Shown here: positions 7,687 to 53,072 of the stretch, one piece after another
Position numbering within the stretch: the first letter of the stretch is position 1
Layout: every line of letters begins with the position of its first letter
Assembly (NCBI RefSeq): GCF_002572525.1
Contig: NZ_PDBS01000001.1
Location: 2,232,001-2,296,000 of the forward strand
Direction: 5' to 3'
DNA: 64,000 nucleotides
Source of the DNA: Natrinema sp. CBA1119
GTDB taxonomy: Archaea > Halobacteriota > Halobacteria > Halobacteriales > Natrialbaceae
Program-made: the position numbers and the translations under genes
Notes under the pieces: generated by a model
Databases searched by the model: none
What the model was told of the DNA's origin: nothing
The model's input: the letters and a program-made list of their open reading frames with translations, nothing else

Positions 7687-8261
7687 CAGGCCTCACCTCC
7701 GACGAGGGGTTCGACGACGGTCAAATCCTTGTCGGTACCGATCGAGCGGATGGCTGCGATCACCGCTGTGGACCGCCCGGAGTTGACTGCGAGCCGGGCT
7801 CGAGCGCTCGCGACGGCTTCGGTCCCGTCGGGCGCGGCCAGCGAGAGGTCCTGTACGACAGCGTTGGCCTCGTCCTCGATTCGCGAGAGCGTGTTCGAGA
7901 GATCGGTTTCTACAAGGTGGCCGATCAGGATGACGTTGATCTCCTCGCCGTAGTGCTCTTCGCCGGCCTGGATGACGTTGACGCCGGCGTCGCGCAGCGC
8001 CTCGACGATCCCGTCGAACCGGTCGGGCGGACACTCGATGTCGACCTCAACGGGGATGTGCCCTCGAGGCGTGATGTTGCCGCGTTCGTGGTGGATGCTC
8101 AACAGATTGCCGCCGTTGTCGGCGATCGGCGCGAGCGCGCGGAGCAACTCGCCGGGTTCGTCGACGAGCTCGAGTCGGACGGTATAGGCGCGGACGCCGC
8201 CGTCCGTCTCGGCGTCGGGTTTGTCGTCGTCGGGTTCGGATGCGTCACCCATCGACGGCAC
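7686..8261 (-). CDS. ACT-domain protein, probable regulator of homoserine dehydrogenase
   Basis: A 191-residue protein with an acidic N-terminus, then an ACT domain (VRLELVDEPGELLRALAPIA) followed by a second ligand-binding-like region ending near VVEPLVGGEA. ACT domains bind amino acids and confer feedback control. Coupling to hom by a one-base overlap suggests that it senses threonine or a related amino acid, which is an inference. An ATG three codons in (8252, MGDASEPDD) is an equally plausible start. Confidence 0.85.
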   Translation of the reverse strand: MPSMGDASEPDDDKPDAETDGGVRAYTVRLELVDEPGELLRALAPIADNGGNLLSIHHERGNITPRGHIPVEVDIECPPDRFDGIVEALRDAGVNVIQAGEEHYGEEINVILIGHLVETDLSNTLSRIEDEANAVVQDLSLAAPDGTEAVASARARLAVNSGRSTAVIAAIRSIGTDKDLTVVEPLVGGEA

Positions 8262-8409
8262 CTCCTGCCTGTGGGCGTCTACTCGTCGTCATAGTATCTG
8301 ATGTCCGTACGGGGCGCGTAAAAGGATATAGGATTTCCCAAACGAGCCGTCCCTGTCAACGACGGCCACACGCCCACGAGCTGTCGAGCCGATCCTCGCT
8401 CGACAACTC

Positions 8410-8775
8410 TCAAAGGTGATCTTTTCCCGGATTCGACGATCCCCAGTCGCCGCGGCCGCCCTCGGTCCGGTCGACGCCCATGATCGACTCGGGCTGGTCG
8501 GGGCCGCCGAGGCTGTCGCGCGCGTCGGGCACCCGGATCGTCACGTCGCTGATCTCGGGCCACGTGATGAGTTCGGCCTCGATGTTGCCCGTCGTCACGT
8601 CGCTGACCGAACAGCCCTTGCAGCCGCCGCCGAGTTCGATGACGACCTCACCGGTCTCGGGATCGGCGGCGCGGACCGCGCTGGTCCCGCCGTGCATCTG
8701 GATGATCGGCATCTCGCGGGCCAGCCACTTCTCGACGCGTTCCCGCAGCGACGGCTCGTCCTCGGAGTCAGTCAT
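8410..8775 (-). CDS. NifU C-terminal domain protein (Fe-S scaffold type)
   Basis: A 121-residue protein. Residues about 8-85 form a NifU C-terminal (Nfu) domain. It contains the invariant CxxC in GGGCKGCSVSDVTTG, which would bind a [4Fe-4S] cluster between two monomers, and a conserved MHGGTSAVRA. The rest is an acidic, low-complexity tail (about residues 90-121) of no recognised type. A role in Fe-S cluster delivery is known for the family. It is flanked by unrelated genes. Confidence 0.88.
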   Translation of the reverse strand: MTDSEDEPSLRERVEKWLAREMPIIQMHGGTSAVRAADPETGEVVIELGGGCKGCSVSDVTTGNIEAELITWPEISDVTIRVPDARDSLGGPDQPESIMGVDRTEGGRGDWGSSNPGKDHL

Positions 8776-8835
8776 GAGACGTGCTAGGATCTCGAATGGT
8801 GAATAAGTTCGGTCGCGCGGCCGAAATCCGGCGAA

Positions 8836-10173
8836 TTAATCCTGAACGTTTCCGCGCCGGCGCAGCCACTCGAGTGCGACCGCGCCACCGGCGAGGCCGG
8901 CGACGCCGGTGAAGCCGGGGATCGGATCGTTCCCGTCCGCCCCGCCGACCGGGGCGGGCTCGGTCGGGAACGTGTAGAGCGCCCCCTCGAGCGACGTATT
9001 CGGGATCCCTTCGGTACTGCTCGCGATGAACGTCTCGCCGGGCTCGAGGACGCGGGCCGTCCAGAACCCGGTTTCCTCGGTATTCCGCCACTCGGCGAGC
9101 AGTTCGGGTGCGGCGGGATCGGACACGTCGTGGATCTTCACGCCGGCTCGGTACCACGACGAGTAGAGCCGACCGTCGCGAAGCTCGAAGTTGTGCGAGG
9201 TCGTCCACATGCCGCCGGGTTTAGATTCGTCATCCGCCCGCGGGGCGTCGATCGACCCCCGATGGACGGGTGCAGCGGAATCACTCACGTCGTAGAGGTC
9301 GATTCCACCCGGTCGATCCGGCTCCGCGCCACCGGTCGCCCAGGCCTCCCTGCCGACCGCCATGAGATCGCCGCCGTCGTTCACCGCAGCGTAATGGTCG
9401 TTCCCGGGCAGTCCGTAGACGGCATCCCGCCAGTCGTCGATCGCGCGCTCCGCCTCGAGCGTGGTGTCCCGGACGTGGGAGATGGACGCCGGCTCGGTCG
9501 GCTCGCTGACGTCGAGCAGATAGGTGCCGGCGTTCCAACAGGGGAGGTAAGCGATCCCATCCTGCACGTACACGTCGTGGATGTAGCGGGCGAGCCAGTG
9601 GACGTCGCGCCAGCCGGGTTCGTGATCCAGCAGCGACCAGGCACCGATCTGCGAAATATCGTCGCCGCCGACATCGAAAATCACGAGCCGGTTCCTTTCT
9701 TCACCGTTCTCGACGACGTACAGCGATTCGTCCTCGAGATAACAGTTGTGGACGTGGTAGCCGGTCCGATGTTCACCGACCGGCTCGGGGTTTTCGGGAT
9801 CACTGACGTCGTAACAGCGGAACCCGGCGACGCTGGATCTCTGGTTGGCCGGCCCCGCGACGACCAGCAGGTCACCGTCGACCGAGACGTCGAGGATCTC
9901 GGTCATCGTCTCGCCCTCGAGTTGGATGTCACGGTCCACCGCGAGGAGCGTTGGCTCGGCGGGATCGCTCACGTCCACGGTCGCGAACCCGAACGTGGCA
10001 GAGACGTAGGCGGTCTCTCCGTCGTCCCCGACGACGGCTTCCGCTGCACCGGTGATGGGGAGTCGGCCGAGGGGCTCGATCGTCGCTTGCCCTCGAACGG
10101 TCCCGACAACTCCCGGGATGGATAGGCTAAGACCGGCAACGCCGCTCGTTTGCAGCACCGCTCGCCGCTTCAT
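8836..10173 (-). CDS. Exported LVIVD-repeat beta-propeller protein with PGF-CTERM anchor
   Basis: A 445-residue exported protein. It starts with a Tat signal (MKRRAVLQTSG plus hydrophobic core). The body has repeated DVSDPxxP units, for example TVDVSDPAEPTLLAV and CYDVSDPENPEPVG, the LVIVD repeats expected to form a beta-propeller. The C-terminus ends in PIPGFTGVAGLAGGA, a hydrophobic stretch and LRRRG. That matches a PGF-CTERM sorting signal, which archaeosortase A removes while attaching lipid to the protein. It should therefore be a lipid-anchored cell-surface protein. Ligand and function are unknown. Confidence 0.85.
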   Translation of the reverse strand: MKRRAVLQTSGVAGLSLSIPGVVGTVRGQATIEPLGRLPITGAAEAVVGDDGETAYVSATFGFATVDVSDPAEPTLLAVDRDIQLEGETMTEILDVSVDGDLLVVAGPANQRSSVAGFRCYDVSDPENPEPVGEHRTGYHVHNCYLEDESLYVVENGEERNRLVIFDVGGDDISQIGAWSLLDHEPGWRDVHWLARYIHDVYVQDGIAYLPCWNAGTYLLDVSEPTEPASISHVRDTTLEAERAIDDWRDAVYGLPGNDHYAAVNDGGDLMAVGREAWATGGAEPDRPGGIDLYDVSDSAAPVHRGSIDAPRADDESKPGGMWTTSHNFELRDGRLYSSWYRAGVKIHDVSDPAAPELLAEWRNTEETGFWTARVLEPGETFIASSTEGIPNTSLEGALYTFPTEPAPVGGADGNDPIPGFTGVAGLAGGAVALEWLRRRGNVQD

Positions 10174-48323: not shown

Positions 48324-48779
48324 TTACTCGACATCGTCGTGCGTCAGCAACGGGCGCGTTCGTTCGTCCTCGGGTGAATCGTACGTGACGACCTCGAGGA
48401 GGTTGCCGTCCGGGTCGAGGAAGTAAAAGCCCTCGAACTCCCCCCAGTCGTAGGGTCCTTGCTTCGGGAACTGTCCCTCGAGGTCGGCCATCAGCGACTC
48501 GTAGGGCCCGCGATCGGTTGCGAACGCGAGGTGGGCCTTGTCGAGCGGGTGATCGAGCCCACGCTCATCCCAGTTCTCGGCGCGGCCGGTTTCGGCCAGC
48601 GTCACGACCGTCTCGCCGGCCCGAAACATCGCGTGTGCACCCTGGAAATCGTCGGGTGGTCTGACCAGTTCGAGATCGAGGACATCGCGGTAGAACTCGT
48701 AACAGGGCTCGAGCGCGTCGACGTCGACGTTGATGTGATCGACAGCGTCCATGTCGTGAAGTACCACGGGAGGGGACAT
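48324..48779 (-). CDS. VOC family (glyoxalase/dioxygenase) protein
   Basis: A 151-residue protein with one VOC module pair. Metal-ligand candidates are His in AVDHINVDVDALE, KAHLAFATDRGPY and Glu in DPDGNLLEVVTY. Members include glyoxalase I, fosfomycin resistance enzymes and ring-cleaving dioxygenases, so no reaction can be named. The start at 48779 (MSPPVVLHD) or 48752 (MDAVDHINV) is possible. Confidence 0.85.
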   Translation of the reverse strand: MSPPVVLHDMDAVDHINVDVDALEPCYEFYRDVLDLELVRPPDDFQGAHAMFRAGETVVTLAETGRAENWDERGLDHPLDKAHLAFATDRGPYESLMADLEGQFPKQGPYDWGEFEGFYFLDPDGNLLEVVTYDSPEDERTRPLLTHDDVE

Positions 48780-48881: not shown

Positions 48882-49277
48882 TCAGGAACGATCGACCCGC
48901 GAGGGCGACGGCGTCTGCCGCCACTCCGGTTCCTCCCGCGGCGGCGCGAGGACCCCGAGGCCGAGCGCATCCTCGCGATCCCGATTTTCCGCGCCGTGGC
49001 GTTCGTTGCTCGCGAATCGATACGCGTCGCCGGCCGTGAGCGGGTACTCCTCGCCCTCGACGATTGCGGTGAGTTCCCCCTCGAGGACGAACCCGATCTG
49101 TTCGTTGTCGTGCGCGTGGACCGGTAGCGTCGCTCCGGCTTCGATCCGCCAGTAGACCATGCCCGCTCGGTCTCCGGCGGGGAGCGCCGCGAGGTGGACG
49201 CCGTCAGCGACCTCCTCGAACGCCGCCCGGTCCGTCGATCGTTTCTCCATGTGAGCAGGCAACACTCCCCACGCCAT
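48882..49277 (-). CDS. Cupin domain protein
   Basis: A 131-residue single cupin. Motif one is PVHAHDNEQIGFVLEGELTAIVEG (HxHxNEQ...E variant), and motif two contains PLTAGDAYRFASNERHGAEN. It can bind a metal and may be an enzyme or a sensor. It is divergent from three NMT1-like genes, and a symmetric TATA element between them places its start at 49277, giving MAWGVLPAHMEKR. An ATG at 49250 is the alternative. Confidence 0.82.
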   Translation of the reverse strand: MAWGVLPAHMEKRSTDRAAFEEVADGVHLAALPAGDRAGMVYWRIEAGATLPVHAHDNEQIGFVLEGELTAIVEGEEYPLTAGDAYRFASNERHGAENRDREDALGLGVLAPPREEPEWRQTPSPSRVDRS

Positions 49278-49300
49278 CACTGATAAACGTATCGTGAAAA

Positions 49301-49310
49301 CGCTTTAAGC
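49301..49310. promoter_or_regulatory. Shared symmetric TATA element of a divergent gene pair
   Basis: CGCTTTAAGC contains TTTAA centred at 49306. It is 28 bases from the ATG at 49334 and 29 from the ATG at 49277. Leaderless transcripts in both directions from one nearly palindromic box fit the spacing. Confidence 0.5.
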
Positions 49311-49333
49311 ACCTCAGCGGTGTCGGTTGACAC

Positions 49334-50227
49334 ATGTTGACACACCAATCCATCAGGCTGTTTCACCTCCCGTTCTCGTTCATGCTGCCCCAGCGGGTGG
49401 CGGCCGAAGCGGGCTACTTCCGCGATGAGGGTCTCGCGGTCGAACTGGTCGAACGGGATAGACGCGACGTCGAAGTCAAGTATATCCCCGCGGAGGAAAC
49501 GCTGACGGACGATTACGACGTAGATCTCTACCCGATCTGCAAGTGGGAGAGCATCCGCCGGACGTGGGAGATGGGCGACGGCCGCATCGTCGCAAACGGC
49601 ACCTTCGCGAACCTTCCGTACACCGTCTTCACGCGACCGGACTCCGACCTCGAGACCCCGGCCGACCTCGCGGAGGTCCCCGTCGGTGTCAACTTGCGAA
49701 CCGGGCAGGAGTATACCGCGCGAAAGGCTCTCGAGGAACACGTCCCGCCCGACGAGATCGACCTCGTCGGCTGCGGAATGCCGACCGACAGGCTGCAGGC
49801 CCTTCGCGAGGGGCGCGTCGACGCCGTGACGCTCATCGACCCCCACAGTACCCTCGCCGACCACCTCGGTTTCCGACGGCTCCTCGAGTACGACAACCAC
49901 ATGGGTATCGTCGGCAGCGCCGAAATCGATCGTGACCTGCTCGAGGCGTTCCTGCGGGCCTACGGCCGCGCGGTCGACGACATCAACGCCGATCCCGACG
50001 CCTTCCGCGGGACGTATCTCGAGTTGCTCGAGGCCGACGCGGCGGTCGCGCCAGACCTGTTCGACGAGATCGACGTCGACGCCGTCCGCGAAGAGATCGA
50101 CGTGCCCGAGTACGAGGTCCCCGAGCCCGCCGACCGCGGGGAACTCGACGACCACCTCGAGTGGATGCAGGCCCGCGGATTGATCGGCGAGGACGCGACG
50201 ATCGACGACATCGTCGCGCCGCTGTGA
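49334..50227 (+). CDS. NMT1/THI5-like binding-protein homologue without signal peptide (1)
   Basis: A 297-residue periplasmic-binding-fold protein of the NMT1/SsuA type. Features are QRVAAEAGYFRDEGLAVELV (typical start), VPVGVNLRTGQEYTARKALEE (lobe crossover), DRLQALREGRVDAVTLID and an acidic C-terminus. No Tat or Sec signal precedes it: it starts MLTHQSIRLFHLPFSF, a hydrophobic strand that is part of the fold, not a signal. No ABC permease or ATPase genes are adjacent. It is the first of three tandem homologues and probably cytosolic. Confidence 0.82.
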   Translation: MLTHQSIRLFHLPFSFMLPQRVAAEAGYFRDEGLAVELVERDRRDVEVKYIPAEETLTDDYDVDLYPICKWESIRRTWEMGDGRIVANGTFANLPYTVFTRPDSDLETPADLAEVPVGVNLRTGQEYTARKALEEHVPPDEIDLVGCGMPTDRLQALREGRVDAVTLIDPHSTLADHLGFRRLLEYDNHMGIVGSAEIDRDLLEAFLRAYGRAVDDINADPDAFRGTYLELLEADAAVAPDLFDEIDVDAVREEIDVPEYEVPEPADRGELDDHLEWMQARGLIGEDATIDDIVAPL

Positions 50228-50273
50228 TCGCGCATCGAGACGCCCCAAGCGCCACCTCCATCCAGACTCCACC

Positions 50274-51314
50274 ATGACCGATATCGACATCAGTTCCCAA
50301 CAGGCCGCGATCGACGAGTTCCAGAGCGACCCCGACGACCGTCCCGTTCTGCGGGCGCGGTTCGAACACAACGGTAGCCCGCGGTACATGCTCTATACGA
50401 TCAAACGGTTCGGCTACGACCACGACCACGGCTTTCACCTCGACCTGCAACTCGTCTCCGACGAACTCGAGGCGGGCCGCGAGACCGTCGAGGCGAAACT
50501 CCAGGACGGCGACGCCGACCTGATCGACATCGACTACATCTCGACGGCCCGCGAGCGCGCCGACGGCGCGCCGATCGTCGCCTTCCACCCCTACGGCCAG
50601 ACCGTCGGCGGGCTGGTCGTCCCCGACGACTCGCCGATCGACGGGCTCGCGGATCTCTCGGGCCACCGGATCGGCGTCGTCAGACGCCTCGACAAGAACT
50701 GGATCCTCGTCCGGGCGGCCTGTCGGGAGTTCCACGGCTTCGATCCGGACGAGACGACGACGCCGGTCGAAGCCGGTTCGAAGGTCGAACTCACCCGGCT
50801 GCTCGAGGAGAGCGAGGTCGACGCAATCCTTCAGTTCTGGCAGATTATCCCGGAGATCGTCGAGACCGGACCCTACCGCGAGGTGCTGCCGATGTCGCGG
50901 CTGGTAGACCGCCTCGCGGACGGCGGTACCGACACCGACATCGACACTGACACCGACGGCGATCGCCCGATTCCGGTCTCGACGTTCCTGACGAGTGAGG
51001 GATATCTGGCCAACCATCCCGATGCTGTCCGCGGGTTTCAGAGCGCGTTTCAGGACGCCGTCGAGCGACTGCAACGCGACGACGAACTCTGGGACGAGAT
51101 CGGCGCACAACTCATGTACGAGGACGACCCCACGGTCATCCGAGCCGTCCGCGATCGGTGGCGGGAGATGGTCGTTCCCGACTGGGACGAGTCGACGGTC
51201 GAGGGGATGGAGCGGCTGTTCGACGACCTGCGCGCGGTCGCCGGCGCGGACGCGCTCGGCGTCGACGAACTCCCGGACGGACTGTTCCGGCCGGAACTCG
51301 AGGTGGATGCATGA
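50274..51314 (+). CDS. NMT1/THI5-like binding-protein homologue without signal peptide (2)
   Basis: A 346-residue homologue. It starts MTDIDISSQQAAIDEFQSD and lacks an export signal. Landmarks are MLYTIKRFGYDHDHGFHLD (N-lobe), KLQDGDADLIDIDYIS, SGHRIGVVRRLDKNW and VEAGSKVELTRLLEESEVDAI. It has a low-complexity acidic insert (TDTDIDTDTDGD) near residue 220. Its stop overlaps the start of the third gene (ATGA). The ligand is unknown. Confidence 0.8.
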   Translation: MTDIDISSQQAAIDEFQSDPDDRPVLRARFEHNGSPRYMLYTIKRFGYDHDHGFHLDLQLVSDELEAGRETVEAKLQDGDADLIDIDYISTARERADGAPIVAFHPYGQTVGGLVVPDDSPIDGLADLSGHRIGVVRRLDKNWILVRAACREFHGFDPDETTTPVEAGSKVELTRLLEESEVDAILQFWQIIPEIVETGPYREVLPMSRLVDRLADGGTDTDIDTDTDGDRPIPVSTFLTSEGYLANHPDAVRGFQSAFQDAVERLQRDDELWDEIGAQLMYEDDPTVIRAVRDRWREMVVPDWDESTVEGMERLFDDLRAVAGADALGVDELPDGLFRPELEVDA

Positions 51315-52300
51315 CTGCGACGGACAGCGAGCCCATCTCGTTCCAACTCAACTGGGAACCCAACGGCTTCCAGTCGCCGTACTTCCTCGCCCGCGAAGCG
51401 GGGTTCTACGAGGCGGAGGGCCTCGAGGTCGAGTTCGTCGAGGGACACGGCTCGCCCTTCGCGGTCGAACGCGCCGCTCGCGGCGAGAGCGATATCGCGC
51501 TCGCCGGCGCGAGCGCCGTGTTGGCGAAACAAAGCGAAGGACTCGAGCCGCTCGCGGTCGCGGCGGTGACCCAGAAGACGCCAGCGGCCGTCTACACCCT
51601 GCGGGACGTCTTTGGCGAGGAACTCACCGAACCCGAACAGCTCGCGGGCCGAACGGTTGCGCCCTCCGCCACGAAGACGCGGATCCTCACCGCTCAGCTG
51701 CTCGCGAACGCGGGCATCCGCGACGAGGTCGAACTCCTCGAGGTCGACCCGCACACGCACCACCGCGTCCAGCACAAGGTGGTCGACGGGACGGTCGACG
51801 CGGCGGTCGGCGTCGTCACGAACGGGATCGAGATCGGCCGGAAACACGATCGGACGGCCGACGAACTCCCGATCGGCGACTATCTTGATATCTACGGGAT
51901 GACGCTCGTCACCGGCCACGAGTTCGCGGACGAGAACCCGGAGACGATTCGGTCGTTCCTGCGGGCGACCGCGCGCGGCTGGGCTGCCGCGACTCGCGAC
52001 CCCGAGCGCGCGATCGACGTGCTCGTCGACCGGAACGCCACGCTCGAGCGCAATCGAGAGATCGAACGGCGCAAGTTCGAAACCGCCGCGAACCGACTGC
52101 AGTTCACGCCGTATGCTCAGGATCACGGCTGGGGTGTGCAGGATCCGGCCCGCTGGCGGCGACTCGGGGAGACGCTCTCGGAGACGGCACTGCTCGAGGG
52201 AGCGATCGATCCAGACGCCGTGTGGACCGACGAGTTTCGGCCCGCCGACGAGCCGATCGTCGCCGAGTACGCCGACCGGGTCCGGCCGACAGCGGAGTGA
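51311..52300 (+). CDS. NMT1/THI5-like binding-protein homologue without signal peptide (3)
   Basis: A 329-residue homologue and the most canonical of the three. It starts MTATDSEPISFQLNWEPNGF, matching the THI5/NMT1 opening LNWxPxxxx, and continues SPYFLAREAGFYEAEGLEVEFVEG, LAGRTVAPSATKTRILTAQ and HTHHRVQHKVVDGTVDAAVG. It has no signal peptide and no CCCFC motif, so the yeast Thi5 suicide mechanism is not supported. It is coupled to the second copy by ATGA. Confidence 0.83.
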   Translation: MTATDSEPISFQLNWEPNGFQSPYFLAREAGFYEAEGLEVEFVEGHGSPFAVERAARGESDIALAGASAVLAKQSEGLEPLAVAAVTQKTPAAVYTLRDVFGEELTEPEQLAGRTVAPSATKTRILTAQLLANAGIRDEVELLEVDPHTHHRVQHKVVDGTVDAAVGVVTNGIEIGRKHDRTADELPIGDYLDIYGMTLVTGHEFADENPETIRSFLRATARGWAAATRDPERAIDVLVDRNATLERNREIERRKFETAANRLQFTPYAQDHGWGVQDPARWRRLGETLSETALLEGAIDPDAVWTDEFRPADEPIVAEYADRVRPTAE

Positions 52301-52403: not shown

Positions 52404-53072
52404 ATGGCCCTCGAGCAATCCGAGTACGACTTCTGGCTGCTGGACCTCGATGGGACCCTCGTCGACGTCGAGTGGTCTTACACCCGCGAGGTGTTCGACC
52501 GGGTCGGCGACCGGCTGGGGCGGGAGTTCACCGACCGGGAGGCCGACATCCTCTGGAGCGGCCTGACTGGCTCCCGGGATCGCCAGCTCGAGGAGTGGGG
52601 GGTCGACCCGCAGGCGTTCTGGGAGGTCTTCCACGACGAGGAGGACCCGCTGGTGCGGGCCGAACAGACCTACCTCCACGAGGACGCCGCGTTCGTCGCC
52701 GACCTCGAGGCACCGGTCGGGCTCGTCACACACTGTCAGGAGTTCCTCACCGAGCCGGTGTTGGAACACGTCGGGATCCGCGACTGGTTCGACGCGCGTC
52801 TGTGCTGTACCGAGGAGACGGGCTGGAAGCCCGACCCGGACCCTGTCGAGCGCGTCATGACCGATCTCGGTGTTGCTCACAACGGCCACCGGGGTGTGCT
52901 CGCCGGCGACGGTGCTTGCGACATCGGTGCGGCGTGGAACGCCGGACTCGACGCGATTCACGTCGAACGCGTCGGCCACGAGCGGCGGGGCCGGTGCGTG
53001 CTCGGCGATCACCGCGTCCGCTCGTTCGACGAACTGGGGTTCGATGGACCGCATCGATCGGCGACCGACTGA
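52404..53072 (+). CDS. HAD family hydrolase
   Basis: A 222-residue HAD phosphatase-like protein. Motif I is LLDLDGTLVDVEW, and motif II region is VGLVTHCQEF (His where Ser/Thr-x-N is common). Lys in ETGWKPDPDPVE is motif III, and LAGDGACDIGAAWNAGLD is motif IV. The substrate is unknown. It follows the NMT1-like genes by 104 bases on the same strand, so it may belong to that transcription unit. Confidence 0.88.
   Translation: MALEQSEYDFWLLDLDGTLVDVEWSYTREVFDRVGDRLGREFTDREADILWSGLTGSRDRQLEEWGVDPQAFWEVFHDEEDPLVRAEQTYLHEDAAFVADLEAPVGLVTHCQEFLTEPVLEHVGIRDWFDARLCCTEETGWKPDPDPVERVMTDLGVAHNGHRGVLAGDGACDIGAAWNAGLDAIHVERVGHERRGRCVLGDHRVRSFDELGFDGPHRSATD

Follow-up and report, generated by a model that had tools for sequence, protein, structure and literature searches.

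Function of three NMT1-fold genes in a Natrinema locus

The locus considered here lies within a 64-kb stretch of DNA (the window) from a salt-loving archaeon of the genus Natrinema. It raises the question of what three adjacent genes for NMT1/THI5-like proteins, facing a divergently transcribed cupin gene, contribute to the cell. A sequence-only reading of the window first described this arrangement, and profile searches bear it out: SBP1, SBP2 and SBP3 (together, the trio) exceed the PF09084 gathering score of 20.5 bits with 44, 42 and 118 bits, respectively (E-values 2e-11, 1e-10 and 8e-34), and the cupin matches Cupin_2 at 1e-17. The VOC gene, the kinship of SBP2 with PqqT and the link to a PQQ alcohol dehydrogenase described below were not part of that reading. 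The features of the locus are as follows.

48324..48752, minus strand: VOC-family protein (PF00903, Pfam 1e-7), constant module member
48882..49250, minus strand: cupin (Cupin_2, Pfam 1e-17), divergent from the trio
49251..49333, no strand: divergent intergenic region, from the sequence
49334..50227, plus strand: SBP1, predicted cytosolic NMT1-fold protein of the 'CxW' subfamily (PF09084)
50274..51314, plus strand: SBP2, predicted cytosolic PqqT homolog (PF09084, PDB matches, clade)
51311..52300, plus strand: SBP3, predicted cytosolic sister of an import lipoprotein and an HTH-NMT1 regulator (PF09084, 8e-34; clade 98/100)
52404..53072, plus strand: HAD hydrolase, genus-level neighbor (5/29 trio loci)

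The start codon (ATG) of SBP3 overlaps the stop codon of SBP2. The region 49251–49333 presumably holds promoters for both directions; scans of the locus for bacterial-type promoters and terminators gave no match, a null result expected of bacterial models applied to an archaeon.

Predicted location of the trio proteins

No lipobox was found in 75 trio proteins (25 each of SBP1, SBP2 and SBP3), while 9 of 10 import-type paralogs in the same comparison carry one. Hydrophobic N-termini are likewise absent from SBP2 (25/25) and SBP3, and the SBP1 frame in the window, with 298 codons for a protein of 297 amino acids, leaves no room for an upstream signal. SBP1, SBP2 and SBP3 are thus predicted to be cytosolic, in agreement with the sequence-only reading, which took them to be signal-less and distinct from transport receptors. 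Its further statement that no ABC permease or ATPase is nearby also holds, as haloarchaeal queries found none in the 64-kb window at E<1e-3. Transporter genes or signal peptides in relatives would, on the same reading, have spoken against a cytosolic location. ABC genes do occur near the trio in 8 of 29 relative loci; at those loci a separate lipoprotein receptor accompanies the transporter and the trio proteins are still signal-less, so that the cytosolic assignment stands.

Composition of the conserved module

The gene order of the trio is repeated at 29 loci spread over many genera, which excludes chance and confirms that the cluster is conserved across haloarchaea, a check that had been suggested from the sequence. 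A VOC gene is present in 28 of the 29 loci, immediately after SBP3 in other genera; its product has invariant H6, H74 and E120 and a nearly invariant E54 in the alignment, which suggests a metal site. The cupin, present in 25/29 loci, retains invariant H45, H47, E50/Q51 and H85, the typical cupin metal set. The conserved module therefore comprises the three SBP genes, the cupin and the VOC protein. The HAD hydrolase does follow the trio in the window, as originally described, but is confined to chromosomal Natrinema-type loci (5/29), which rules it out as a module member. A link to pterin or heme synthesis, raised by genes near the trio named from sequence as pterin-4a-carbinolamine dehydratase and hemA-like, was also rejected, as it reflects synteny within the genus and the module occurs elsewhere without these genes. 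Genes for tungsten-type aldehyde oxidoreductases (AOR) are found within or next to the module at five of the 29 loci (L044, L049, L076, L116 and L120).

Three subfamilies and their relatives

The trio had been described as a single set of tandem homologs; a tree instead places its members in three old NMT1 subfamilies, ruling out recent tandem duplication. SBP1 clusters with other cytosolic NMT1 proteins and carries invariant C69 and W71, which are conserved in paralogs and bacteria too. Its AlphaFold model (pLDDT 86.7) has a PBP fold over the full length and aligns alike with SsuA, ThiY, Thi5, PqqT, MqnD and DszB, so that this fold comparison did not separate binders from enzymes. With the cytosolic NMT1-fold enzymes DszB and MqnD the trio shares fold and probable location, and SBP1 has its invariant cysteine; the trio does not, however, belong with them by sequence. 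Bacterial relatives of SBP1 (Streptomyces, Thermocrispum, Geminicoccaceae) have varied neighbor genes that offer no functional clue.

SBP3 forms a clade (98/100 support) with two haloarchaeal protein types whose genes adjoin that of the dehydrogenase, an NMT1 ABC import lipoprotein and an HTH-NMT1 fusion regulator; all three types track the dehydrogenase, but SBP3 has neither lipobox nor HTH domain. In sequence searches SBP3 hits both ThiY and Thi5 (E 1e-12 to 1e-14); its model, which is weak over the last 67 residues, resembles them too. Both SBP1 and SBP3 are closer to ThiY/Thi5 than to PqqT by sequence or fold.

The SBP2 profile has PqqT, the PQQ-binding protein of Methylorubrum extorquens, as its sole PDB match (E 3e-31); a single-protein search likewise returned 9b1u, 9b1v and 9ooz (E 1.3e-25), all PQQ-bound PqqT, and the two proteins share one clade with 99/99 support. 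PqqT binds PQQ with a Kd of 50 nM (PMC12828617; PMC12124388). In a comparison of PQQ contacts resting on two engineered PqqT positions, K142 and Y161, the aligned SBP2 residues K141 and F188 are invariant in 25 SBP2 sequences, the replacement of tyrosine by phenylalanine keeping the aromatic character. In Alphaproteobacteria, six loci with PqqT-like genes were inspected; four adjoin a PQQ dehydrogenase gene and one adjoins pqqB-pqqC. SBP2 differs from the periplasmic PqqT in having no signal peptide, no adjoining permease or ATPase in the window, and a place in a three-protein module.

Association with a PQQ alcohol dehydrogenase

The distribution of the trio closely follows that of genes for a lanthanide-type PQQ alcohol dehydrogenase. 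With genomes treated as independent, the dehydrogenase is encoded in 53/54 trio genomes versus 16/337 others in the class, 43/43 versus 10/82 in the family and 18/18 versus 0/11 within the genus; counted by genus, the co-occurrence is 15/16 versus 5/70. NMT1-family proteins of the trio, importer or regulator group occur in all 69 dehydrogenase genomes and in 5 of 322 others. Outside the Natrinema chromosomal type, no more than about 10 kb separates the dehydrogenase from the trio in 9 of 24 loci. One genome lacking the dehydrogenase (G016) keeps only SBP3 fragments and the VOC gene at the syntenic site, and in another (G153) the trio adjoins two AOR genes, with no dehydrogenase at the threshold used. 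In sixteen dehydrogenase genomes, NMT1 proteins of the importer or regulator type take the place of the trio, which is thus not indispensable.

The dehydrogenase passes PF01011 and scores 373–378 bits against TIGR03075, under the curated cut-off of 480 bits. An alignment of six signal-less (c8) sequences found all checked PQQ and lanthanide residues in place: the vicinal cysteine pair, glutamate, asparagine, catalytic aspartate and the Asp-x-Asp lanthanide signature. A lysine is kept as well. The cysteine pair, glutamate, asparagine and Asp-x-Asp are shared with the lanthanide PQQ dehydrogenases XoxF and PedH, from which the haloarchaeal enzyme differs in being archaeal, in its score below the TIGR03075 cut-off and in lacking a signal peptide, for which the frame of 571–574 codons in most copies has no space. 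An exported blue-copper (halocyanin-like) gene adjoins that of the dehydrogenase, which hints at a possible site of action of the enzyme outside the membrane.

Searches of 125 genomes, in which positive controls worked, found no PqqC and no PqqE above the cut-off. The window genome, which has both trio and dehydrogenase, encodes no recognized PQQ synthesis; nor was an NMT1-type importer found there, the only NMT1-type proteins outside the trio being two weak matches.

Proposed role in PQQ handling

We propose, with a probability of about 0.6, that the trio captures PQQ, or a close analog, in the cytosol and delivers it to the archaeal lanthanide-type alcohol dehydrogenase. By analogy with PqqT, SBP2 would bind PQQ or a very close analog; SBP3 would share its ligand with the import receptor and HTH-fused regulator that are its sister proteins; and SBP1 may bind or process a related ligand. 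In bacteria, PQQ dehydrogenases are exported proteins that encounter the cofactor in the periplasm, where it is held by PqqT. The haloarchaeal dehydrogenase would instead fold in the cytosol, and then stay there or exit folded via Tat; either way, its cofactor would have to reach it inside the cell. PqqT-like proteins in the cytosol would hold on to the reactive quinone and pass it on to the dehydrogenase, possibly together with the metal. The cupin and VOC proteins are likely to act either on this ligand or on products of its damage. Weighing against the proposal are G153, the dehydrogenase genomes that lack the trio, the lack of both importer and recognized PQQ synthesis in the window genome, the closeness of SBP1 and SBP3 to ThiY/Thi5, the phenylalanine at the position of PqqT Y161, and the hint of an enzyme active outside the membrane.

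Alternatively, the trio, VOC protein and cupin could catalyze the synthesis or modification of PQQ, or of a PQQ-like quinone, through a pathway with no relation to PqqA-E. Enzymes have arisen from the NMT1 fold on several occasions (Thi5, DszB, MqnD-type), and the presence of the dehydrogenase where PqqC and PqqE were not found would be accounted for. Natrinema genomes such as G000 combine trio and dehydrogenase with no NMT1 importer, so that trio and importer look partly interchangeable. The invariance of SBP1 C69 even among distant relatives, the alignment of the SBP1 model with MqnD and DszB, and the metal-type ligands kept in the VOC protein and cupin also fit catalysis. However, the closest characterized relative of SBP2 is a pure binding protein, the kinship of SBP3 with an importer receptor suggests binding over catalysis, and some dehydrogenase genomes lack the trio; we consider this route unlikely. 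Somewhat more doubtful is its fuller form, an archaeal PqqA-E-free pathway in which SBP1-SBP2-SBP3, VOC protein and cupin make or convert a PQQ-type cofactor that feeds an intracellular lanthanide-type alcohol dehydrogenase.

A ligand serving as co-substrate or cofactor of the linked aldehyde oxidoreductases or another C1-pathway component, with the dehydrogenase link secondary, would suit the loci with AOR genes in or beside the module, including G153. We judge it improbable given the few loci with such genes, the PqqT-like SBP2 and the near-complete correlation with the dehydrogenase. The NMT1/THI5 name would imply binding of thiamine precursors (HMP/FAMP) or HMP synthesis, and the fold shared with ThiY and yeast Thi5, together with the SBP3 matches, agrees with it. 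The CCCFC motif is, however, absent from SBP1, SBP2 and SBP3 (SBP3 contains no cysteine), as the sequence-only reading argued in setting aside Thi5-type pyrimidine synthases; no recognized thiamine gene occurs among the neighbors inspected, and distribution follows the PQQ dehydrogenase, which together with the PqqT-like SBP2 makes a thiamine role very improbable. Least credible are ordinary ABC receptors with a transporter encoded elsewhere, since family membership in PF09084 and the ABC genes at some relative loci are outweighed by the missing lipoboxes and hydrophobic N-termini, the separate lipoprotein receptors at those loci and the near absence of other NMT1-type proteins from the window genome.

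Implications for haloarchaeal PQQ metabolism

To our knowledge, PQQ and lanthanide metabolism have been described almost entirely from bacteria, in which PQQ enzymes are periplasmic; in the open-access literature searched, no paper was found that deals with PQQ dehydrogenases of haloarchaea or with the supply of their cofactor. The archaea described here combine a putatively cytosolic PqqT homolog and a signal-less lanthanide-type PQQ dehydrogenase with no recognized PQQ synthesis. If the proposed delivery of PQQ by the trio is correct, some haloarchaea would use PQQ, and probably lanthanides too, with dedicated cytosolic carriers; the route by which they acquire PQQ would become directly testable, and a function would be gained for many proteins whose present annotation goes no further than 'ABC transporter substrate-binding protein'.

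Gene content and conservation of the module

The locus encodes three cytosolic NMT1/THI5-like proteins, SBP1, SBP2 and SBP3 (the trio), all above the PF09084 cut-off, in the following arrangement:

48324–48752, minus strand: VOC-family gene
48882–49250, minus strand: cupin
49334–50227, plus strand: SBP1, NMT1/THI5-like
50274–51314, plus strand: SBP2, NMT1/THI5-like
51311–52300, plus strand: SBP3, NMT1/THI5-like
52404–53072, plus strand: HAD

The positions of the cupin, trio and HAD genes agree to within a few codons with those of a sequence-only reading, from which the VOC-family gene, among the most constant partners of the module, was absent. That reading also described the trio as lacking signal peptides and nearby ABC permease or ATPase genes, and both points were borne out: SBP1, SBP2 and SBP3 carry no recognizable signal peptide or lipobox, and haloarchaeal ABC ATPase and permease queries match nothing in the window.

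The cluster is conserved in other haloarchaea. Among 29 loci with SBP1 and SBP2 gathered from many haloarchaeal genera, with genes called by our own codon-score caller, SBP3 and VOC are each present in 28 and the cupin in 25; the HAD gene, correctly placed downstream of the trio by the sequence-only reading, occurs in only five, all of the Natrinema chromosomal type. The conserved unit is thus cupin, SBP1–SBP2–SBP3 and VOC. Because the histidines of the cupin and the H/E/H/E residues of the VOC protein are retained, both proteins may be metal enzymes. In several genera, a short paralogue (~555 aa) of the aldehyde ferredoxin oxidoreductase AOR lies between the cupin and VOC genes:

L044:11413–13092, short AOR paralogue
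L076:12869–14530, short AOR paralogue
L116:12128–13795, short AOR paralogue
L120:9847–11538, short AOR paralogue

Relationship of SBP2 to PqqT

In a maximum-likelihood tree of NMT1 proteins, in which long branches were flagged, SBP2 groups with the bacterial PQQ-binding protein PqqT and alphaproteobacterial PqqT-like proteins (support 99/99). SBP3 falls in a clade (98/100) that also holds an HTH–NMT1 fusion regulator and the lipoprotein receptor of a haloarchaeal ABC system, and SBP1 joins further cytosolic NMT1 proteins from haloarchaea and bacteria (99/95). The SBP2–PqqT grouping is independently backed despite the long branches, because PqqT is the sole match of the SBP2 profile in the whole PDB (E 3e-31) and is matched at 1e-25 by the individual SBP2 sequence, whose next match reaches only E 0.13. 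PDB entries 9b1u, 9b1v and 9ooz are titled as PqqT with PQQ bound, 9b1v also with Gd3+, and PqqT binds PQQ with a Kd of 50 nM (PMC12828617; PMC12124388). SBP2 K141 aligns with PqqT K142 in 9b1u numbering (115 in 9ooz numbering, for a presumed offset of 27), and F188 aligns with position 161 of 9ooz; both residues are invariant across 25 SBP2 sequences.

The HTH–NMT1 protein (L054:14905–16155 and relatives), which clusters in the tree with SBP3 and the import receptor, is likely a ligand-sensing regulator of the PQQ system. Other haloarchaea encode a further cytosolic NMT1 protein, with 30% identity to SBP1 and a shared CxW motif, whose gene comes first in an ABC transporter operon (at about 8100–9600 in loci L109, L110, L111, L112 and L113).

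Among six alphaproteobacterial PqqT-like loci sampled, a PQQ dehydrogenase gene lies near the PqqT-like gene in four (Azospirillum, Pseudosulfitobacter, Shinella and Phyllobacterium), and pqqB–pqqC adjoins it in Roseomonas; no PQQ dehydrogenase gene was found within the stretch read in Paroceanicella.

A PQQ alcohol dehydrogenase homologue as probable partner

Of the 24 trio loci that are not of the Natrinema chromosomal type, 9 encode a PQQ alcohol dehydrogenase homologue (567–574 aa) within about 10 kb. The solved structures closest to it include quinoproteins of the PedH and XoxF types (6zcv and 4mae), both lanthanide enzymes. The homologue keeps the vicinal cysteines, Glu, Asn, catalytic Asp and second Asp; the residue roles are known from XoxF and PedH, the second Asp being the mark of lanthanide enzymes. 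As it scores below the TIGR03075 curated cut-off, we describe it as a homologue with an intact site rather than a proven member. The open frame spans 571–574 codons in most copies, leaving no space for a signal peptide. An orphan protein of ~300 aa with no Pfam match, possibly a dehydrogenase subunit, adjoins nearly every copy read (e.g. L054:4213–5064).

In the window genome, the signal-less homologue is encoded far from the trio (C1:440147–441847), with neighbors encoding a formaldehyde-dehydrogenase-like Zn enzyme, formate dehydrogenase alpha, a CobW-type GTPase, an HbpS-like protein and an exported blue-copper protein; this stretch (L086, G000:C1:431000–450999) looks like an archaeal methanol-to-CO2 gene set. 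The genome also encodes a more divergent second homologue, without the cysteine pair, at C1:3267956 (L087, G000:C1:3258000–3277999). It is preceded by a ~310-aa protein with no assigned family and a Tat-like RRDFLKALG start, and could possibly be exported piggy-back with this partner; the pair lies at L087:8968–11783.

Co-occurrence of the trio and the dehydrogenase

In the family sample (125 genomes; presence at E<=1e-30), the dehydrogenase was found in 43/43 genomes with strong SBP1 versus 10/82 without SBP1, a count that is not blind because the query was picked from its place beside the trio. Strong SBP1 matches (E<1e-100) are separated by a clear gap from weak paralogues (E>1e-35). Within the genus Natrinema, the figures were 18/18 versus 0/11. 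In the class sample (391 genomes), where scoring was restricted to the few best candidates per genome, they were 53/54 versus 16/337, or 15/16 versus 5/70 counted by genus. Part of the dehydrogenase matches are of the more divergent rather than the signal-less type. The p-values for these counts take genomes as independent and are thus too small; the pattern recurs within several genera (g1, g8, g9 and g21). Twenty trio genomes lie outside the family, unused in choosing the query except for one plasmid locus (L076), and 19 have the dehydrogenase.

Genome G016, a member of the genus that is without the dehydrogenase, contains a decayed trio at the syntenic site (L117, G016:C1:305000–324999): SBP3 is in fragments and VOC is kept, while SBP1, SBP2 and the cupin were not detected there. 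Genome G153 is an exception, with the trio and AOR genes and no dehydrogenase found. At least one NMT1 protein of the trio, importer or regulator group is present in 69/69 dehydrogenase genomes of the class sample versus 5/322 others.

Cofactor source and proposed mechanism

Among the 125 family genomes, PqqC had no match and PqqE none above cut-off; in bacterial genomes, the same models give matches of E 1e-110 and 1e-163 or better. Many dehydrogenase genomes encode the HTH–NMT1 regulator together with an NMT1 ABC importer, which the window genome and a number of its close relatives lack. These distributions fit either PQQ salvage with intracellular carriers or a role of the trio in PQQ synthesis; we favor salvage, because the closest relative of SBP2 is a binder and the sister of SBP3 is an import receptor.

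The NMT1 fold, the family and PqqT are already known; searches of the open literature returned no report of archaea that pair a signal-less lanthanide-type PQQ dehydrogenase with a conserved module containing PqqT homologues of the cytosol. In the most probable course of events under the favored salvage reading, PQQ would enter through the importer in genomes having one, SBP2, and probably SBP3 as well, would bind it inside the cell, and it would be handed to the dehydrogenase during folding. Cytosolic carriers would be needed if the dehydrogenase takes up PQQ before, or instead of, export; the Tat-like RRDFLK partner of the related dehydrogenase in the window genome (L087) suggests that the cofactor may be needed inside the cell.
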